DNA of 39,653 bases, taken from contig JAEUWH010000119.1 in the NCBI GenBank assembly GCA_016785955.1, positions 1-39,653 on the forward strand. Reading direction: 5' to 3'. Positions within the stretch are counted from its first letter, which is position 1; the number at the start of each line of letters is the position of its first letter. This document shows positions 30,624-38,917 of the stretch, piece after piece. This DNA is from Pseudobdellovibrionaceae bacterium (GTDB lineage: Bacteria; Bdellovibrionota; Bdellovibrionia; Bdellovibrionales; Bdellovibrionaceae). Both the position numbers and the translations under genes were made by a program. The notes below the pieces were generated by a model, which worked only from the letters and a program-made list of their open reading frames with translations, did no database searches and was not told the origin of the DNA.

Positions 30624-30892
30624 TTTATGACTCTTACGAGGTTTCAACTGTTTTAGTCAAGGTATTGAAAATCTTCGGTAATTTTTATTTTCTCAATTCG
30701 AGACACCAAATGTTTGACAGCGTTTCACACTGAGACAGATTTCTAAAATTTAAAATATAAGATCAAATTCGACTATTTAGACCAGCATTCGCGCCCCTTG
30801 GCACACCACCCACTTGGTCACCCGGCTTGCAATTTCTTTAGTTGGAATAAGAAAAATAGAGCCGGGACGGCTCATAATAAATGGAGGAATTT

Positions 30893-32326
30893 ATGAAATT
30901 ACCAATGAAACAGTGGTTCTTATACGGAACCCTATTTAGTGTACTAGGATTCTCACTGTCGGGACATGACCCCCGAGTGGAAGGATCTACACATCTTTCA
31001 CAATTAGCACCCGCGACAGCTTCGCCTGCAGCGAGTAATGCAACAAACACAGGTTCAAGCACCGCACCGGCTGTCGAACACGCAGCGGCTACCGTTGTTA
31101 CCACTACCCCCGCTCCTGCGCGTGGTGGAGCCGACAGCTCGGCCTCAGGCCGCACGGTAACCCCAGCGCCTAAACCAGAAAAATTTAATAATTATTCACT
31201 TTACGTAAAATCCACGGGCAAAACATACGAAGTCCAAATGCTGAGCAAAAACGACCAAACCCAAGTTATATACTTTGATAAAAACGAAGGAAGAAACTGC
31301 ACCTCATCCGAATGCAACCGTACGGCCGCCATGCATATTATTGATGGCGAATCCGCAGACGACTTCAGAAAAATCTTGGCTAAAATTGAATTTGAGCTGA
31401 TCCCTCAAGACGAAGCCAAAATAGCCAAAAAAGAGACCGCAAGCAGCGAAGACTCTGATAAAGATTCCGATGGAACCTCGGATGGTCGAGCTTATTTGGA
31501 TAAGACCATCGATAAGCGCTGCAAGAATTTTAAAGACGAAATCCTTTTGATTGACTGCAAAGTAAGTAAATTTATGGACATCCTCAAAGAAAATAAAAAA
31601 CAAAAGAACAAGAAAAAATTTCCAGAAATCACAGACGACGATGCTAAATCCTATGTGAGCGACGAACTAAAAACCAAGCTCAAGGACATGCTCACGCACA
31701 AACACTCGGTCAGAACCTTAGGGCGAAGCGCATATGGTTTAAATTTGGAAGATCGAAACTTCATTTTTGAAGAAAAAGAAAAAGCACTTTTGGAAATGGA
31801 AAAAGCAAAAAATATGATCGCCAAACTGCTTCGATTAAGCGTTGCTGGTTATGATGAGACTAAAAAAGAAATTACATCTTTGTATAAAGAATCCATGCGT
31901 GAACAAGCCAATATAGCTTTACGCAACCTTCGTGAAATGAGCGACGCCAAAGCCGCCGACAACATGCTGGGTTTTGCGAAAAGCCGTGGCAGTTTCATGG
32001 AAAACTATAACTATTTAGGCTATCTAGACCGCGAACTTTATTCTTCAATGGACGACAATTTACGTTGGGCAATGTCCTCTGACTATCTAGGAGACAGCTT
32101 CGGCTCGAATCTTTTAGACTCACTGTACACAGATCGCGAATCTATCTTGAAAGCTTTCTTAAACGAGCGCACCCAATCGCTTGGCTCGAACCCACTTCTT
32201 CAAGGCCTCGACGCTGTGACAAATGCTGGACGTAGAGGTCGCGGAACGGGCACGACCGCATCGGGACTGTCTACGGGATTGCCTGGGAGTTCAGTGATCA
32301 TCAATCGAGTGAATCGCGGTTTCTAA
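30893..32326 (+). CDS. secreted or anchored protein of unknown function (477 aa)
   Basis: ATG 30893 is preferred because GGAGG lies seven nt upstream. The earlier in-frame ATG 30881 overlaps that ribosome site. A hydrophobic N-terminal segment (WFLYGTLFSVLGFSLSG) is followed by a long Ala/Thr/Pro/Ser linker (about 30-95). A small beta-rich domain (about 97-165, two Cys in NCTSSECN) and a Lys/Glu/Asp-rich helical part come next. The C-terminal end is Gly/Ser-rich. The linker suggests a domain pushed away from the membrane. I recognise no family. It stands alone, with a clear terminator at 32361-32388 and a good -35 box (TTGACA 30714-30719) upstream but no matching -10. Confidence 0.78.
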   Translation: MKLPMKQWFLYGTLFSVLGFSLSGHDPRVEGSTHLSQLAPATASPAASNATNTGSSTAPAVEHAAATVVTTTPAPARGGADSSASGRTVTPAPKPEKFNNYSLYVKSTGKTYEVQMLSKNDQTQVIYFDKNEGRNCTSSECNRTAAMHIIDGESADDFRKILAKIEFELIPQDEAKIAKKETASSEDSDKDSDGTSDGRAYLDKTIDKRCKNFKDEILLIDCKVSKFMDILKENKKQKNKKKFPEITDDDAKSYVSDELKTKLKDMLTHKHSVRTLGRSAYGLNLEDRNFIFEEKEKALLEMEKAKNMIAKLLRLSVAGYDETKKEITSLYKESMREQANIALRNLREMSDAKAADNMLGFAKSRGSFMENYNYLGYLDRELYSSMDDNLRWAMSSDYLGDSFGSNLLDSLYTDRESILKAFLNERTQSLGSNPLLQGLDAVTNAGRRGRGTGTTASGLSTGLPGSSVIINRVNRGF

Positions 32327-32460: not shown

Positions 32461-33855
32461 CTAGAATTGCAAACCAATTTTGGTGGCAAAACCAAAAGTA
32501 AAATTCTTTTCTGATCCCGGAACCAACGGCGACTTGAAAGCCTCGCCAGGAAACAACAAACCTACTTGGTTTACCCATTGTACTTTCTCGCGCAATTTGT
32601 ACACCAGCTCGACATCATATTCAAAACCAAGATCCTTGGAACCTGCACCACCCACTAAAGGATCCGTCATTAACTGTCCCCACGCAATCGTCTGATTCAA
32701 ATCAAGTTTATCGCTCCATCGGTATTTAAATACGGGAGCCAAGTAAAATACATTGCTGATAGCCTCATCATCCGGACTATTTGCTACACCCATATTAACG
32801 GTATCGCGAATTGCAGCCGAACGAAAAAGATCGTACGAACCCAAGCGATGATTGAACATTAAGAACGCCACATCATAATTGCGGTCAAATTGAAAGCCTT
32901 CATAGTCAGTCGTATTGGGATTGTCTCCGCTGGCGACCCCTGCTTTTAAAATATAATTCCAATTCGATTCGGTTTTAAAAAACCACTCCGAAGCAATACC
33001 GTAACCCGTCGATTTAACACTTTGTCCATTTTTCAGCAGACCCAGTTCACCCGAGTTAAACCCCGCCTCTAAACGAAAACTAAAAAAATCCCAGTCTTTA
33101 CCCAGAATAAAATTTGTTTTCTGAACATTCATATCACCCTGACGAGAATCTGCGATGGCGCTTGGATTCGTCGTGCCGACCGGAACATCGTTAGTGCCAA
33201 TGCTGGCTTTGCGACGCTCTAACATCACACCGATTTGATTTCCCGTCTGTTTGTTATCATACATGACCAAAAAACCTTCGTCTTGAATGATACTTCCTTG
33301 TTGAAACCCATCATCGAAATGGCGCGAAATGAATGGCATCAAAGTCATATTATCGACCAACATTTTGTAAGCCACTTGATCACGATTACTGTTCCAGTGA
33401 TCAAACAATCCATCACCCACGCTGTAACTCATTCCAATACCGAATTGAAAAGGGGCGCGACCGACGATCAACGAAGCATTTTCCTGACTTAAATTAAAAT
33501 ACATTTGCGACGCGCGAATGGTCGAACTTGTTCCGTTACGCCCCAAAACATTTGATTTAGAAGAATACGCGCCAGAATCGCTATTGCCTTGTCCCCAAAT
33601 ACTTCCCAAGTATGAATTATAACTGGGATGAGTGTCGCCAAAAACTTCAAAGCGAGTGATGACTTGAATCCCATCAGATACCACCAATCGAGGTGATAAA
33701 TACAAAGCATGCATTCCATACGATTTTCGCTCGTAAGGCGTGCCTAAGCTTGGGCGATCGATTTCTAGATATTCAAATCGATAACCACCTTTCCAATCTA
33801 CCTGGTTCGCAAACACTAATCCCGACAACGTAATTAAAAATAATACTATTCTCAT
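32461..33855 (-). CDS. outer-membrane beta-barrel protein, porin-like
   Basis: The protein has about 464 residues. A signal peptide ending in SGLVFA is followed by alternating hydrophobic/aromatic strands throughout (QMYFNLSQ, FQFGIGMSYSV, MLMPFISRHFDDG, FSFRLEAGFN) and a C-terminal Phe (KIGLQF), the recognition signal of the BAM machinery. No specific substrate can be assigned. ATG 33855 is chosen because AAAGGA sits too close to the first ATG at 33861. The gene lies 16 nt downstream of the GroES-like fusion gene and closes a four-gene operon starting with two DUF507-like genes. Confidence 0.85.
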   Translation of the reverse strand: MRIVLFLITLSGLVFANQVDWKGGYRFEYLEIDRPSLGTPYERKSYGMHALYLSPRLVVSDGIQVITRFEVFGDTHPSYNSYLGSIWGQGNSDSGAYSSKSNVLGRNGTSSTIRASQMYFNLSQENASLIVGRAPFQFGIGMSYSVGDGLFDHWNSNRDQVAYKMLVDNMTLMPFISRHFDDGFQQGSIIQDEGFLVMYDNKQTGNQIGVMLERRKASIGTNDVPVGTTNPSAIADSRQGDMNVQKTNFILGKDWDFFSFRLEAGFNSGELGLLKNGQSVKSTGYGIASEWFFKTESNWNYILKAGVASGDNPNTTDYEGFQFDRNYDVAFLMFNHRLGSYDLFRSAAIRDTVNMGVANSPDDEAISNVFYLAPVFKYRWSDKLDLNQTIAWGQLMTDPLVGGAGSKDLGFEYDVELVYKLREKVQWVNQVGLLFPGEAFKSPLVPGSEKNFTFGFATKIGLQF

Positions 33856-33871
33856 ATTCATCCTTTAGCGG

Positions 33872-34537
33872 CTACTTCACTATTCCCAAGACATCAGACT
33901 CACGAATAATCATCACATTGCGACCTTCAACATCGATTTGACTTCCCGAAAACTGCGAGAAAACAACTTTGTCGCCAAGGGACACGTCTAACGGTTTTAC
34001 TTTTCCTTTTTTATTCATATGACCGCGACCGATCGCCATGACCTTGCCGTGGTAGTTTCCCGAAACGTCGGTCACAGTATCTGGAATGTATAAACCACCT
34101 GCAGTCACTTTTTCCGTCTCGCCAACCAGCACCACAATGCGATCGTCCAGCGGAGTTAAAAAACTTTGGAAGTAACTTTCAGATTTTTTACCATGCAGCG
34201 CCGATGTTTTGGCGCCGCCCGCTGCTGGGGACACAGATTTTCCACCTGTCGGTTTTGTCACAGTTTTTGTTTTCGCAGAGGCTTTGGGTTGAGTCAAAGA
34301 CTTGACCTTTGCTACTGGCTTAACTGACTTAGACAAAGGCTTGGCCGCCGATTTAACTGCTTTCGCTGGCTTAGCTGCCTTGCCTGATTTAGCTGTTTTC
34401 GCTGTTTGAGCGATTGGCTTAGCCGTGGACTTAAATTTATCTGTCGTTTTTGTTTTCGCTTTAATGACGGGTTTAGCCGTTTTCTTTGCGCTGACCTTTT
34501 TTGCCGGAGTCGTTTTTTTTACATTTTTCTTAGCCAT
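33872..34537 (-). CDS. GroES-like co-chaperonin fused to a histone-H1-like basic tail
   Basis: This protein of 221 residues comes in two parts. Residues 1 to about 125 consist of Lys, Ala, Pro, Thr and Ser in KPAK/AKKT-type repeats, like histone H1 or AlgP tails, with almost no acidic or hydrophobic residues. Residues about 128-221 are a complete Cpn10 domain: PLDDRIVVLV, TAGGLYIPDT (mobile loop), AIGRG, LGDKVVFSQFSG and a C-terminal MIIRESDVLGIVK. Normal GroES is about 95 residues without such a tail. No groEL is adjacent. The gene overlaps the preceding DUF507-like gene by 8 nt. The tail may bind nucleic acid or acidic surfaces. An ordinary groES probably exists elsewhere in the genome. Confidence 0.85.
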   Translation of the reverse strand: MAKKNVKKTTPAKKVSAKKTAKPVIKAKTKTTDKFKSTAKPIAQTAKTAKSGKAAKPAKAVKSAAKPLSKSVKPVAKVKSLTQPKASAKTKTVTKPTGGKSVSPAAGGAKTSALHGKKSESYFQSFLTPLDDRIVVLVGETEKVTAGGLYIPDTVTDVSGNYHGKVMAIGRGHMNKKGKVKPLDVSLGDKVVFSQFSGSQIDVEGRNVMIIRESDVLGIVK

Positions 34538-34799
34538 TTTTCTTTCTTTCCTCTTCGTAATATTTTTTATACAAAACTTCCCATTCCGGAGAGCTTTCCA
34601 CGACTCCTCGTTTCAGTGACGCCACTTTTTCTCGTGCGCGCTTGTCGATGGCCAAGTCCTCGTTGACGAATTCTTTAATCGCAAGCTTCGCCAGCCTCAA
34701 GGCTTGATCTTCGTCCGTGTAATCCACCATGTCGTCGTTCCAAATAGAATCCGTCAACAAATGAGCCCAATGAGATTGTCGCTCTTCGGATAAAATCAT
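34530..34799 (-). CDS. DUF507-like protein, second copy
   Basis: The protein has 89 residues, is highly charged and mostly helical, with WAHLLTDSIW at the N-terminus and WEVLYKKYYEEERKKNG at the end. I place it in the DUF507 family because of its size, helix pattern and pairing with the preceding gene, which is typical of deltaproteobacterial and Bdellovibrio relatives. The function of the family is unknown. The start overlaps the end of the first copy by 4 nt (34796-34799), and its end overlaps the GroES-like gene by 8 nt, so all three are tightly coupled. Confidence 0.68.
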   Translation of the reverse strand: MILSEERQSHWAHLLTDSIWNDDMVDYTDEDQALRLAKLAIKEFVNEDLAIDKRAREKVASLKRGVVESSPEWEVLYKKYYEEERKKNG

Positions 34800-35074
34800 A
34801 AGATCACCTTTTTCTCTTTTGCCAATTTTTGTTTTAGCAACGGATACATTTTGTAACGTTGAAATTCGCCAGAATTGGAACGCTCGAGCTTGTCCAACAT
34901 ATCATTCACTTCTTTTTCCAGATCCAGCTCTTTCTGAAAATCTTGTTTCAAGCTTTCAAGCATACGACTCATAACTTTTTTTTCGTAGGCTTTGAATTCA
35001 ATCACATGATTGTCTTTCCAGGCTTTCATTACTTTATTGACGATGACTTCGAGCTGCTGATTTGTTAGTTTCAT
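34796..35074 (-). CDS. DUF507-like protein, first copy
   Basis: The protein has 92 residues from ATG 35074 (MKLTNQQLEVIVNKVMKAW), with AAGGG about eight nt upstream. Upstream in-frame codons to 35149 would run into the divergent gene and are rejected. It is charged and helical, without signal peptide or membrane segment. It opens the operon DUF507-DUF507-GroES fusion-barrel. Its start codon is separated from that of the divergent penicillin-binding protein by only ATAT, so its promoter must lie inside the other gene's coding sequence. Confidence 0.72.
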   Translation of the reverse strand: MKLTNQQLEVIVNKVMKAWKDNHVIEFKAYEKKVMSRMLESLKQDFQKELDLEKEVNDMLDKLERSNSGEFQRYKMYPLLKQKLAKEKKVIL

Positions 35075-35078
35075 ATAT

Positions 35079-37463
35079 ATGCCCTTAATTCGAAGTCGAT
35101 TAAAGACCATTTTAATAGCTTTTACAATCACTCTGACGCTGTCGATCATCTACTCGGCCAACGCATTCACCAACTATGAAAAAGACCTCGAAGATCGTTT
35201 GAAATCCAAACAATTCCTTAATCCCACAGTTTTTTATGCCTCACCGATTGCTTTAAAAAAAGGATTTATTCTGCCCCGCGAATCCCTGTCGACGTATTTT
35301 GCTCGTCAAAACTTTAGAGAACGTCAAAAAGATCAGCGTATTATGGACGGGGACTATTTTTATGGCAAACGCGAGGACTGCCTTTCTATGGCTCCCGAAA
35401 TCACAAGCGAATATCAATCCTGTCTTTTTTTCGCTAAAAAATATCATTCCTCGTCTTCCGAAAGCGTCGCCGAAAGGGATATCTCAGTATTTCAAGTTTT
35501 TATGGATCCAGACTATCGCATACTAGAGATCCATTCAAATACACCACCAACGGCGCCTGAAATTATTGAGATGGATCCCGAAATTTTAGCTCAGTATTTA
35601 AGTACTGAGCCCATCATGCAAGAGGCCGTGGAAATCAAAGACCTACCGACGAATTGTCCCAATGCGATTATGGCCATTGAAGATGCCGATTTTCTGGAAC
35701 ACAAAGGCTATAGCATCAAAGGCACTGTGCGCGGAATATTGGCTCCCTTGCTGAAAGGGAAAAAGCCTCAGGGTGGCAGCACCATCACACAACAACTTGT
35801 CAAAAATTATTTTCTAACGAACGAGCGCACCGTGCGCCGGAAAGCCGAAGAATTTATTTTATCGGTTTTGATTGAAAAGAAAATGACCAAAGACGAAATT
35901 TTAGAAACTTACATGAACGTTATTTATATGGGACAAAACGGTCCGTTTCAGATTATCGGTTACGGCGCCGCCAGCCAATATTACTTCGATAAAAAGATCT
36001 CGGATTTACGGCTAGACGAATGCGCGTTACTGGCCGCCGTGTTGAACGGCCCTGGCGTCTATCATCCATTCAACAAACCCGAAAAAACGATGACGCGCAG
36101 AAATTTGGTCTTATCAAAAATGCAGCAATTAAAACTGATTTCTGATACCGAATACGAGGAAGCAATCCAAAAGCCGATGCCCAAGAAACGCACCTCACAG
36201 GCCTCGGAAACGGCGCCTTATTATTTAGACGCTGTTCGCAAGCAGCTTAAAAAATTAAATATCCCGGCCGAGGGTACGCGCATCCAAACTGGTTTAAATT
36301 TGGAATTACAACAAAAAGCGCAAGAATCTTTACAGGCTCACTTGGCGTCTTTGGAAAAAGACAATAAAAAATTAGCCGACAATAAAACAAAAGGTCTCTC
36401 TTTGGAAGGCGTGGTTCTGTCAACAGAACATCAAACCGGTATGGTTGATGTCTTGGTGGGCGGACGCAGTTTCCGGATGACCCAATTCAATCGGGCCACT
36501 GAAGGGCATCGTCAAGTGGGTTCTATTTTTAAACCATTGGTTTATTTGACGGCTTTAGAAAAAATTAAAACGGAAGAAGGATTTGTATCCCCGCCCACGG
36601 GCTTGGGAAAAATTTTTAGCAGCTATCGTCCCTTTACCCCCATGACGCCACTGAAAGATGAGCCTTTCGTATGGACAATGAACAAACGAAAATGGTCTCC
36701 AGAAAATTATGCTAAAAAATTTTTCGGCTCAGTGCCTTTTTACTATGCCTTGAAAAACTCTCTAAACGCATCGACCGCGATGCTGGGTCAAACAGTTGGC
36801 TTAGAGGATATCATCGCGAATGCCAAAAAATTAGGGGCCTATTCAGATTTAAAACCGTTTCCTTCGTTAACGCTGGGTGCGTTCGAGATGTATCCCGTAG
36901 AGGTTTTGCAGATATATTCGACATTGGCGAATATTGGAAAAAAAGTGAACTTAAGTTTCATCAAGCGGGTTTACAATTTTAAAAATGAACTGTTGTTTGA
37001 GCATAAACCCAGCCCGGAGGTTGTCGTTGATGATGTCATCACCTCGATCCTTTTAGGAGTGATGAAACAAACGCCTATTTCAGGTACTGCCAAGTCCTTG
37101 GCTAGCGCTGGTTTTGACATCCCCATCGCCGGAAAAACGGGAACGACGAATGATTATAAAGACACATGGTTTATCGGCATGACTCCGCTTAAAACAAGTT
37201 TAGTTTGGGTCGGTTATGATCAAAACGGAGTAACGGGTTTGACCGGCGGCTCGGGCGCAGTTCCCGTGTGGGCACAATTTATGAAAAGCGCCCTAAAGAA
37301 TCACCCCAAAATTGATTTCTTTTTTCCCGAAGATAAAATTCAACGGGTCATTATCGATAAAGACAAATTAACAAAAATGAATTTGAATGTTGATCTGGAG
37401 CCAGACTTAGCACCATTTGAACTGATTTTTGATAAAGAAAAAGTCCCCCCCGAATTGAACTAA
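35079..37463 (+). CDS. class A penicillin-binding protein, PBP1B-like
   Basis: This bifunctional peptidoglycan synthase has 794 residues. An N-terminal membrane anchor (about 9-30) is followed by a linker domain with VFYASPIALKKG. The GT51 glycosyltransferase has catalytic Glu 201 in EDADFLEHKG, then GGSTITQQLVKN and RRKAEEFILS. The transpeptidase has Ser 482 in SIFK, Ser-Leu-Asn at 561-563 and KTGT at 686-689. All active-site residues are present. It resembles MrcB (PBP1B) more than PBP1A in its linker. ATG 35079 is the only start that keeps the membrane anchor, but no Shine-Dalgarno is visible. Its promoter must lie in the divergent DUF507-like gene. The permease gene follows after 68 nt. 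Confidence 0.93.
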   Translation: MPLIRSRLKTILIAFTITLTLSIIYSANAFTNYEKDLEDRLKSKQFLNPTVFYASPIALKKGFILPRESLSTYFARQNFRERQKDQRIMDGDYFYGKREDCLSMAPEITSEYQSCLFFAKKYHSSSSESVAERDISVFQVFMDPDYRILEIHSNTPPTAPEIIEMDPEILAQYLSTEPIMQEAVEIKDLPTNCPNAIMAIEDADFLEHKGYSIKGTVRGILAPLLKGKKPQGGSTITQQLVKNYFLTNERTVRRKAEEFILSVLIEKKMTKDEILETYMNVIYMGQNGPFQIIGYGAASQYYFDKKISDLRLDECALLAAVLNGPGVYHPFNKPEKTMTRRNLVLSKMQQLKLISDTEYEEAIQKPMPKKRTSQASETAPYYLDAVRKQLKKLNIPAEGTRIQTGLNLELQQKAQESLQAHLASLEKDNKKLADNKTKGLSLEGVVLSTEHQTGMVDVLVGGRSFRMTQFNRATEGHRQVGSIFKPLVYLTALEKIKTEEGFVSPPTGLGKIFSSYRPFTPMTPLKDEPFVWTMNKRKWSPENYAKKFFGSVPFYYALKNSLNASTAMLGQTVGLEDIIANAKKLGAYSDLKPFPSLTLGAFEMYPVEVLQIYSTLANIGKKVNLSFIKRVYNFKNELLFEHKPSPEVVVDDVITSILLGVMKQTPISGTAKSLASAGFDIPIAGKTGTTNDYKDTWFIGMTPLKTSLVWVGYDQNGVTGLTGGSGAVPVWAQFMKSALKNHPKIDFFFPEDKIQRVIIDKDKLTKMNLNVDLEPDLAPFELIFDKEKVPPELN

Positions 37464-37531
37464 ACAGATATTGCTTTGGGTACTTGTATTCAAGATGGTC
37501 CCGAGCTATAGAGTCCACCATCGAGGTGAGC

Positions 37532-38917
37532 ATGCTAAGTAGTTTGGGGATCCTAATCAGTTTAGGTCTATTGATGTTTATGGCGTATCGAGGATTTTCG
37601 GTTATCTTTTTCGCCCCTATATTTGCGCTTTTGGCCGCGGCATTCGCGGGTTTTTCACCGCTACCGGCATTGACAGAATTATTTCTTCCTCAACTGGCGG
37701 GTTACGTAAAAGTCTACTTCCCATTTTTTCTTTTGGGCGCCGTTTTTGGTAAAATCATGGAACAATCTGGGGCCGCCGATGCGATTGCCCAAACTATCAC
37801 AAAAAAACTGGGGGCCAAGCACAGCCTACTGGCCGTTGTACTTTCCTGCGCCGTGCTGACGTACGGCGGGGTCAGCTTGTTTGTGGTGGCATTTGCCGTG
37901 TACCCATTCGGGGCTTCACTTTTTCGCAGCGCCAATATTCCTAAGCGACTGCTCCCCGCCACGATCGCCTTGGGCGCATTCACCTTTACAATGGATGCGT
38001 TGCCTGGAACACCGCAAATACAAAACTCGATCCCGATGAAATTCTTTAACACTGATTTGTATGCGGCACCGATTTTTGGAACGATTGGTGGACTGATGAT
38101 TTTTTTCTTGGGCTACGTTTATCTTGAATCTCAACGGAAAAAGGCCCAACAACAAGGTGAAGGCTATGGCACTGTCGCAGCCGGCGAGACACAACAAACA
38201 AACAGAGAAACTCCTTCTTTCGGAATCGCAATCTTGCCGCTTGTCAGCGTCTTGGTATTGACATTGGTTCTACAAAAAATTGTTTTTCCCAATTGGGATA
38301 TTTCACCGTGGGCGGTCGAGCCTCCTTATAAAATGGATCCGAACACGCTGAAAGGAACAATGAATAACTGGGCATTGATCATCGCCTTATCATGCGGAGT
38401 TTTTCTAGCTACGATTTTAAATCCCAAACGACTTTCTGGAAAGTTAGCTCACGCCATCAGCTTGGGCGCCAGCGGGTCACTGCTGGCGATCATGAATACT
38501 GCCTCCGAGGTGGGATTTGGTAATGTCATCAAAATTCTGCCAGGATTTAAAACCATCGCAGAGGCGATGATGAGTATCGGGCGTGGTGGAAGCCCCCTCT
38601 TATCCGAAGCTATTACCGTGAACGTGCTGTCAGGCGTGACCGGTTCGGCATCAGGAGGATTAAGCATTGCTCTAGATTCATTCGGACACGAGTATCTACG
38701 CTGGGCGAATGAATACGGAACCAGTCCCGAACTGCTTCACCGAGTGGCTTCGATGGCCTCGGGTGGAATGGATACTTTGCCGCATAACGGAGCCGTTATT
38801 ACATTGCTGGCCATCACGGGAATGACTCATAAACAATCCTATAAAGATATCTTTGTAATCACACTCATGAAAACGGCGGTCGTATTTATCCTGATTGGCT
38901 TTACCATGTTGTTCTAG
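37532..38917 (+). CDS. GntP-family permease, possibly for D-beta-hydroxybutyrate
   Basis: The protein has 461 residues with about 12 membrane segments. Start ATG 37532 has GAGGTGA just upstream, and the longer frame from 37484 would add a hydrophilic N-terminus. GntP hallmarks are GAVFGKIMEQSGAA near residue 70, the TYGGVSLFVVAFAVYPF segment and the C-terminal ASGGMDTLPHNGAVITLL block. This subfamily includes gluconate and hydroxybutyrate permeases. Conserved details do not decide the substrate, but the acetoacetyl-CoA synthetase in this window makes a ketone-body substrate plausible. It follows the PBP gene in the same direction with its own ribosome site. Confidence 0.87.
   Translation: MLSSLGILISLGLLMFMAYRGFSVIFFAPIFALLAAAFAGFSPLPALTELFLPQLAGYVKVYFPFFLLGAVFGKIMEQSGAADAIAQTITKKLGAKHSLLAVVLSCAVLTYGGVSLFVVAFAVYPFGASLFRSANIPKRLLPATIALGAFTFTMDALPGTPQIQNSIPMKFFNTDLYAAPIFGTIGGLMIFFLGYVYLESQRKKAQQQGEGYGTVAAGETQQTNRETPSFGIAILPLVSVLVLTLVLQKIVFPNWDISPWAVEPPYKMDPNTLKGTMNNWALIIALSCGVFLATILNPKRLSGKLAHAISLGASGSLLAIMNTASEVGFGNVIKILPGFKTIAEAMMSIGRGGSPLLSEAITVNVLSGVTGSASGGLSIALDSFGHEYLRWANEYGTSPELLHRVASMASGGMDTLPHNGAVITLLAITGMTHKQSYKDIFVITLMKTAVVFILIGFTMLF

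Follow-up and report, generated by a model that had tools for sequence, protein, structure and literature searches.

The closest described relative of the gene treated here is groES2 (bd3349) of Bdellovibrio bacteriovorus HD100, which Lambert et al. described in 2012 as a second groES (PMC3464611). In that work the start of Bd3349 was reset from an annotated 224-aa open reading frame to the internal Met108, giving a 117-aa protein, on the ground that the region before the internal Met is repetitive; a tail was thereby dropped (PMC3464611). RT-PCR in HD100 found groES2 expression low in attack phase and raised at 2–4 h, at septation/prey lysis, and loss of the sigma factor Bd0743 derepressed the gene (PMC3464611). 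The authors also argued that GroES2 shares GroEL with GroES1 (PMC3464611). Basic low-complexity tails have been described on quite different proteins. Pseudomonas AlgP and PhaF, with net charges of +55 and +35 over the whole proteins, carry KPAA tails that reportedly bind DNA and give granules their place on the nucleoid (PMC9239181).

A Cpn10 domain fused to a basic tail

The window analyzed here is a stretch of 39,653 nucleotides (contig JAEUWH010000119.1, assembly GCA_016785955.1) from a Pseudobdellovibrionaceae bacterium. A first-pass annotation made from its letters alone had placed a complete Cpn10 domain behind a histone-H1-like tail at 33872–34537. Those coordinates are right, and the gene is read from the minus strand, 34537..33872. 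Its features, and the putative ribosome-binding signal ahead of it, are as follows.

33872..34537, minus strand: groES2-type gene, 221 aa (basic tail plus Cpn10), ATG start, no internal stop
34178..34537, minus strand: predicted disordered Lys/Ala/Pro/Ser/Thr tail, residues 1–120 (composition; pLDDT)
33878..34159, minus strand: Cpn10 (GroES) domain, residues 127–220 (Pfam PF00166, model alignment)
34076..34105, minus strand: mobile loop TAGGLYIPDT, the GroEL-binding segment (motif comparison with orthologues)
33995..34021, minus strand: dome-roof hairpin HMNKKGKVK, charge-reversed versus canonical RVTEDGKIL (net-charge comparison)
34550..34553, minus strand: Shine-Dalgarno-like GAGG 5′ of the groES2 ATG, within the DUF507 C-half gene at its 3′ end (sequence)

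The match to PF00166 is complete, spanning profile positions 2–93 of 93 (E = 1.6e-23; 83 bits against a cut-off of 21.1), and with the window protein none of the 15 canonical GroES NCBIfam subfamily/equivalog models reaches its cut-off (best 88.2 bits versus 133). Residues 1–120 are rich in Lys, Ala, Pro, Ser, Thr, and Val and carry a net charge of +32; Lys makes up 27% and Ala 17% of the tail, and just two of the first 126 residues are acidic. This composition bears out the account of the tail as H1-like. In the AlphaFold2 model, residues 1–120 have pLDDT values of about 51–57 and lack secondary structure, whereas the Cpn10 domain is mostly above 86 except in the mobile loop, where values drop. 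Aligned with solved GroES structures, the modeled domain scores Z = 11–14 (up to 14.2), so that the gene, as modeled, carries the GroES fold with a disordered tail. No tail-like peptide was found elsewhere in the window genome at E = 0.01, in a search weakened by the HMMER composition correction.

The window reading frame is a true fusion of tail and Cpn10 domain and not a chance joining. An identical arrangement occurs in 55 distinct orthologues, which excludes a frame error or assembly artefact as its source, and no relative among those examined encodes the tail and domain as separate genes.

Distribution and phylogeny

Besides the tailed copy, the window genome encodes a canonical 99-aa GroES adjoining GroEL on another contig (C46). 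This is its only GroEL, and the earlier remark that no groEL lies beside the tailed gene thus stands. A single GroEL was likewise found in each of the 32 GroES2 genomes tested. Most of 60 relatives carry a pair of Cpn10 genes, the first short and the second lying inside a long open frame.

Searching a phylum-wide sample of 290 genomes (105 in the order of the window and 185 outside it, tallied by eye from a table) for Cpn10 domains with basic N-terminal extensions, a survey the first-pass annotation had proposed for the Bdellovibrionota, recovered tailed second copies across the order. Two Cpn10 matches were present in 82/105 genomes of the order, comprising 53/55 in the family of the window and 29/50 in the other families. 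From this sample and a set of named genomes, 55 distinct second copies were collected by a Lys-rich stretch of >45 residues ahead of the Cpn10 domain, and all 55 have a basic tail on inspection; the named genomes include Bdellovibrio bacteriovorus kdesi (L082), which has a tailed copy. No untailed long-branch second copy was seen within the order except L067, which is cut by a contig end. No tailed Cpn10 was seen in the 185 genomes outside the order. Nine of these have two Cpn10 copies, all 18 being ordinary short GroES beside groEL, and the rest have one or none; matches from Geobacter, Myxococcota, Nitrospirota, and Planctomycetes are untailed as well.

In a tree of 102 Cpn10 domains, all 55 tailed sequences fall on one side of a single branch with support of 96/93, while the canonical-paralogue part is poorly resolved (95 columns). 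The tree places the tailed copies, that of B. bacteriovorus kdesi included, in one clade distinct from GroES1. On these comparisons GroES2 is a paralogue spread across the order to which the predator Bdellovibrio belongs.

About a fifth of the genomes of the order lack GroES2, which is thus dispensable in some lineages. Several of the genomes without it are small, and its loss seems to track genome reduction in members of family f4. Seven genomes of that family (G202, G221, G230, G248, G271, G294, and G295) measure 1.2–1.8 Mb and have a single Cpn10. In another genome of the order (G039; about 99% complete, 2.1 Mb) no Cpn10 was found, which is unusual at such a size.

Conservation in the tail, mobile loop, and roof

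All 55 tails are basic, with net charges from +18 to +94 (median +31) and a composition of 34% Lys and 20% Ala, yet they range from 48 to 193 residues and conserve neither sequence nor length. Lys residues recur at spacings of 4–5 far more often than in shuffled tails (pooled z of 14 and 12), and taken singly 26/55 tails exceed z = 2; the window tail alone has a weak periodicity (z = 1.7 at lag 4 and 2.8 at lag 6). GroES2 tails are thus H1-like in the sense that applies to AlgP, PhaF, and Hc2, being disordered, rich in Lys/Ala/Pro, and periodic in Lys.

The mobile-loop motif GG[LI]x[IL] is shared by all 47 canonical sequences and by 54/55 tailed orthologues. The GroES2 domain also conserves P, L, D, R and E, L, G in its subunit contact strands, although for heptamer assembly or GroEL capping this is only suggestive. 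The roof hairpin has changed: canonical RVTEDGK corresponds to HxxKKGR in GroES2 (TEDG to xKKG), the second position being Lys in 53/55, and the mean net charge over nine residues is +3.6 in 55 GroES2 against +0.6 in 47 canonical sequences. With a basic tail and a charge-reversed roof, two separate parts of the lid have shifted in the same electrostatic direction. The roof change lies at the dome orifice.

Genomic neighborhood

The gene has the following neighbors.

34530..34799, minus strand: DUF507 C-terminal half gene, 89 aa, overlapping the groES2 start (PF04368 positions 93–181, E = 3.8e-17)
34796..35074, minus strand: DUF507 N-terminal half gene (PF04368 positions 1–93, E = 2.2e-9, from ORF residue 26)
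32461..33861, minus strand: weakly TIGR04551-like gene, 10 bp 3′ of groES2 (C-terminal part, 56.9 bits versus a cut-off of 300)
35079..37463, plus strand: divergent class A penicillin-binding protein, conserved upstream neighbor (PF00912, PF00905; synteny)

The N-half frame opens at 35149, with its probable start Met at 35074. Coupling of groES2 with two DUF507-like genes and the barrel-like gene, as first proposed, is supported, the DUF507 genes matching the two halves of PF04368; the outer-membrane barrel as such is plausible but weakly supported by its TIGR04551 score. Most relatives keep the order of divergent penicillin-binding protein gene, DUF507-N, DUF507-C, groES2, and barrel-like gene, with the groES2 start falling within or near the end of DUF507-C, and the barrel-like gene is the downstream neighbor in nearly all. 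In the genus Bdellovibrio, the DUF507 pair is gone from the locus and the remaining order is kept.

These neighbors make weak candidates for functional partners. Genomes of the order without GroES2 that were examined have the identical locus minus the gene, and a groES-free version of the cluster occurs in other classes and in a further family of this class; being identical in outgroups with no groES at the locus, the neighbors tell little about GroES2. Elsewhere an untailed groES–groEL pair occupies a similar place: in a genome of another class (G062; L164 5294–9382) it has the DUF507 pair on one side and the barrel-like gene on the other, and in two f21 genomes (L201 and L204) it comes after the DUF507 pair. 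Such pairs could be an ancestral state or independent insertions, a common origin not being favored by the tree. These loci suggested that GroES2 might be a relic of a second groES–groEL operon, but the tree does not support this, joining the G062 locus copy with the other GroES of that genome and not with GroES2.

Several features of the surroundings deserve separate mention. DUF507, solved as a single 183-residue protein in Aquifex and counted among the essential DUFs in some bacteria (PMC10439177), is split in the window into two overlapping half-genes. The split is widespread in the phylum, and two f19 genomes (G067 and G073) have the frame unbroken over its full length. G010 and G035, from the genus with B. 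bacteriovorus-like genomes, have no DUF507 match and retain groES2 and the other neighbors. At 30881–32326 the window holds a 481-aa ORF with a signal-like N-terminus, an Ala/Thr/Pro-rich linker, and no Pfam match, whose place near groES2 is conserved in close relatives only. A GntP-family permease gene (37484–38917) follows the penicillin-binding protein gene.

Proposed role and alternative readings

The reading we favor is that GroES2 is another lid for GroEL and that its cationic arms and roof would hold the chamber on a polyanion, e.g., the nucleoid or polysomes, a proposal to which we give belief and doubt in equal measure. We infer that it works as a heptameric lid, the lid function itself being well supported: the cell has a single GroEL and the loop that binds it is intact, so the chaperonin capped by GroES2 is most likely the one that GroES1 caps. 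It would do so by replacing GroES1 or mixed with it, and GroES1/GroES2 mixed rings are possible. Each GroES2 subunit would bear a disordered H1-like cationic arm of about 120 residues and a net charge of about +32, and the dome roof would add a Lys-Lys pair where GroES1 has Glu-Asp, giving the lid a large positive charge. By binding polyanions, this charge would concentrate GroEL–GroES2 chambers on the nucleoid and on nascent RNA/polysomes, with tethering timed to late growth/septation, when B. bacteriovorus expresses groES2.

The chances that the tails tether to a polyanion are about even: AlgP/PhaF-type tails are reported to bind DNA, and GroES2 tails together with the basic roof would act likewise. 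The most likely target would be the nucleoid or nascent RNA, with polyphosphate or membrane next. A further step, a spatially addressed chaperonin in which the choice of lid would bring the single GroEL to nascent transcripts or the chromosome during a particular stage of predation and so set the site of folding within the cell, is offered tentatively, with doubt outweighing belief. In the main text of a study of the B. bacteriovorus nucleoid, neither GroES nor Bd3349 is mentioned (PMC10627809); the material was from attack phase, when groES2 is low, and trypsin/LysC would destroy the tail.

An unlikely alternative keeps the binding of the tail and changes its partner, with polyphosphate or anionic membrane lipid taking the place of nucleic acid and the chaperonin being held at granules or the envelope. 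The similarly tailed AlgP associates with polyP granules (PMC9239181), and the penicillin-binding protein and putative outer-membrane barrel encoded next to groES2 would suit an envelope site. Those genes stand unchanged in outgroups without groES at the locus, however, and so say little about an envelope role, and the tail has no evident hydrophobic or amphipathic membrane motif on sequence inspection.

Rather unlikely is the placement of the cationic arms within the chamber or at its mouth, where they would alter the charge of the cavity or plug it and make a specialized folding cage for proteins of the late Bdellovibrio stage. Charge reversal of the roof at the dome orifice favors this placement, as does the modified cage proposed by Lambert et al. 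(PMC3464611). A GroEL cage holds roughly 60 kDa, however, and seven tails of about 13 kDa each amount to about 90 kDa; the tails are therefore probably outside, unless rings are mixed, and only GroES2-poor mixed rings would fit. A range of 48–193 residues is also unlike a fitted plug. The literature searched gave nothing usable on which way the GroES N-terminus points.

Lys-rich low-complexity tails may be kept for solubility, too, or may drift as repeats slip, which counts against the tether model, as does the dispensability of GroES2 in some lineages. A nearly neutral entropic or solubility appendage, with slippage-driven length and no specific partner, would account for the wide variation in sequence and length and for the low complexity, but we consider it quite improbable here. 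The composition, a net charge never below +18, the Met-Ala start, and the Lys spacing are kept over several families, and the roof has changed in the same electrostatic direction as the tail, contrary to a neutral appendage.

If the tethered lid is correct, its targeting of GroEL to nucleic acid would localize protein folding in a manner that is new for a co-chaperonin, and the retention of two lids by predators that have one GroEL would be explained. Tail and roof are separately removable, so the question can be put to a direct test in a predator amenable to genetics.

Translation of the tail

That the tail is not made at all, with translation beginning just ahead of the Cpn10 domain to give a 117-aa GroES2, is very improbable, even though the published reannotation of Bd3349 favors such a start (PMC3464611) and L041 and L082 have an ATG 21 residues ahead of the domain with a 4-base SD-like match. 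L041 fits the description of Bd3349 exactly, with a 224-aa ORF and a Met 117 residues from the C-terminus. ATG is absent throughout the tail in the window gene and from the tail in 29/55 distinct orthologues, and in 48/55 the 45 residues ahead of the domain hold no start preceded by an SD-like match of ≥4 bases; in the window gene, one GTG does have a 4-base match. Within the Bdellovibrio cluster, a Met at the Met108 position is present in 2/6 and missing in 4/6, while GAAAGG (GGAAAGG in one) precedes a GTG-GCN (VAK) start at a near-identical position in all six.

At the outer start, M1 is invariant and Ala2 occurs in at least 90% of 47 proteins, a figure biased upward since starts were picked favoring Ala2; in most orthologues the MA/VA start follows an SD-like site of ≥4 bases. 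Along the whole tail the reading frame is kept, contrary to an internal start. Indels between close orthologues are multiples of three in 56/60 cases (pairs non-independent), and tail substitutions are enriched at third positions (e.g., 22/19/52 for L041–L082, p = 2e-5). GC3 of the tail tracks GC3 of the domain (rho = 0.81), with positions 1 and 2 doing so less (0.59). These data support the tail as translated and selected coding sequence, and an internal start that removes it was rejected on start conservation, frame-preserving indels, and the absence of Met108 in most relatives. As judged from the orthologues, the choice of Met108 for Bd3349 is contradicted and the published gene model corrected; constructs of groES2 without the tail would miss the distinguishing feature of the protein.

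Comparison with known systems

The window gene matches the GroES2 (Bd3349) group in its clade, the penicillin-binding protein gene upstream, and the barrel-like gene downstream. Like the tailed clade as a whole, Bd3349 of HD100 is a second groES away from groEL that keeps the mobile-loop residues (PMC3464611). The account of Bd3349 by Lambert et al. makes no mention of roof charge reversal, order-wide distribution, or synteny (PMC3464611), and Bd3349 was not found in other Bdellovibrio papers of the literature searched. As far as that literature shows, groES2 was already known in B. bacteriovorus, with its conserved tail, roof change, and distribution undescribed.

Other tailed proteins share the tail and not the domain. 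AlgP and PhaF have a disordered Lys/Ala/Pro tail, theirs with a four-residue Lys repeat (PMC9239181), but it lies at the C-terminus, where it extends helical or phasin domains and not a chaperonin. Chlamydia Hc2 resembles the GroES2 tail in being Lys-rich, with pentamer repeats that vary in number, and differs as a stand-alone DNA-binding protein (PMC2848022).

Other co-chaperonins share the domain and not the tail. Canonical GroES/Cpn10 (GroES1) has the complete Cpn10 fold, mobile loop, and subunit-contact strands of GroES2, but is untailed, about 95–100 aa long, encoded beside groEL, and has an acidic TEDG-type roof. Chloroplast Cpn20, the best PDB sequence match, is likewise a long co-chaperonin variant (about 200 aa), whose added length is a second Cpn10 domain and not a disordered tail. 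Phage T4 gp31 has the Cpn10 fold (Z = 9.3 to the model) and, as GroES2 is proposed to be, is an alternative lid for a shared GroEL; untailed and 7% identical, it specializes by cage size.
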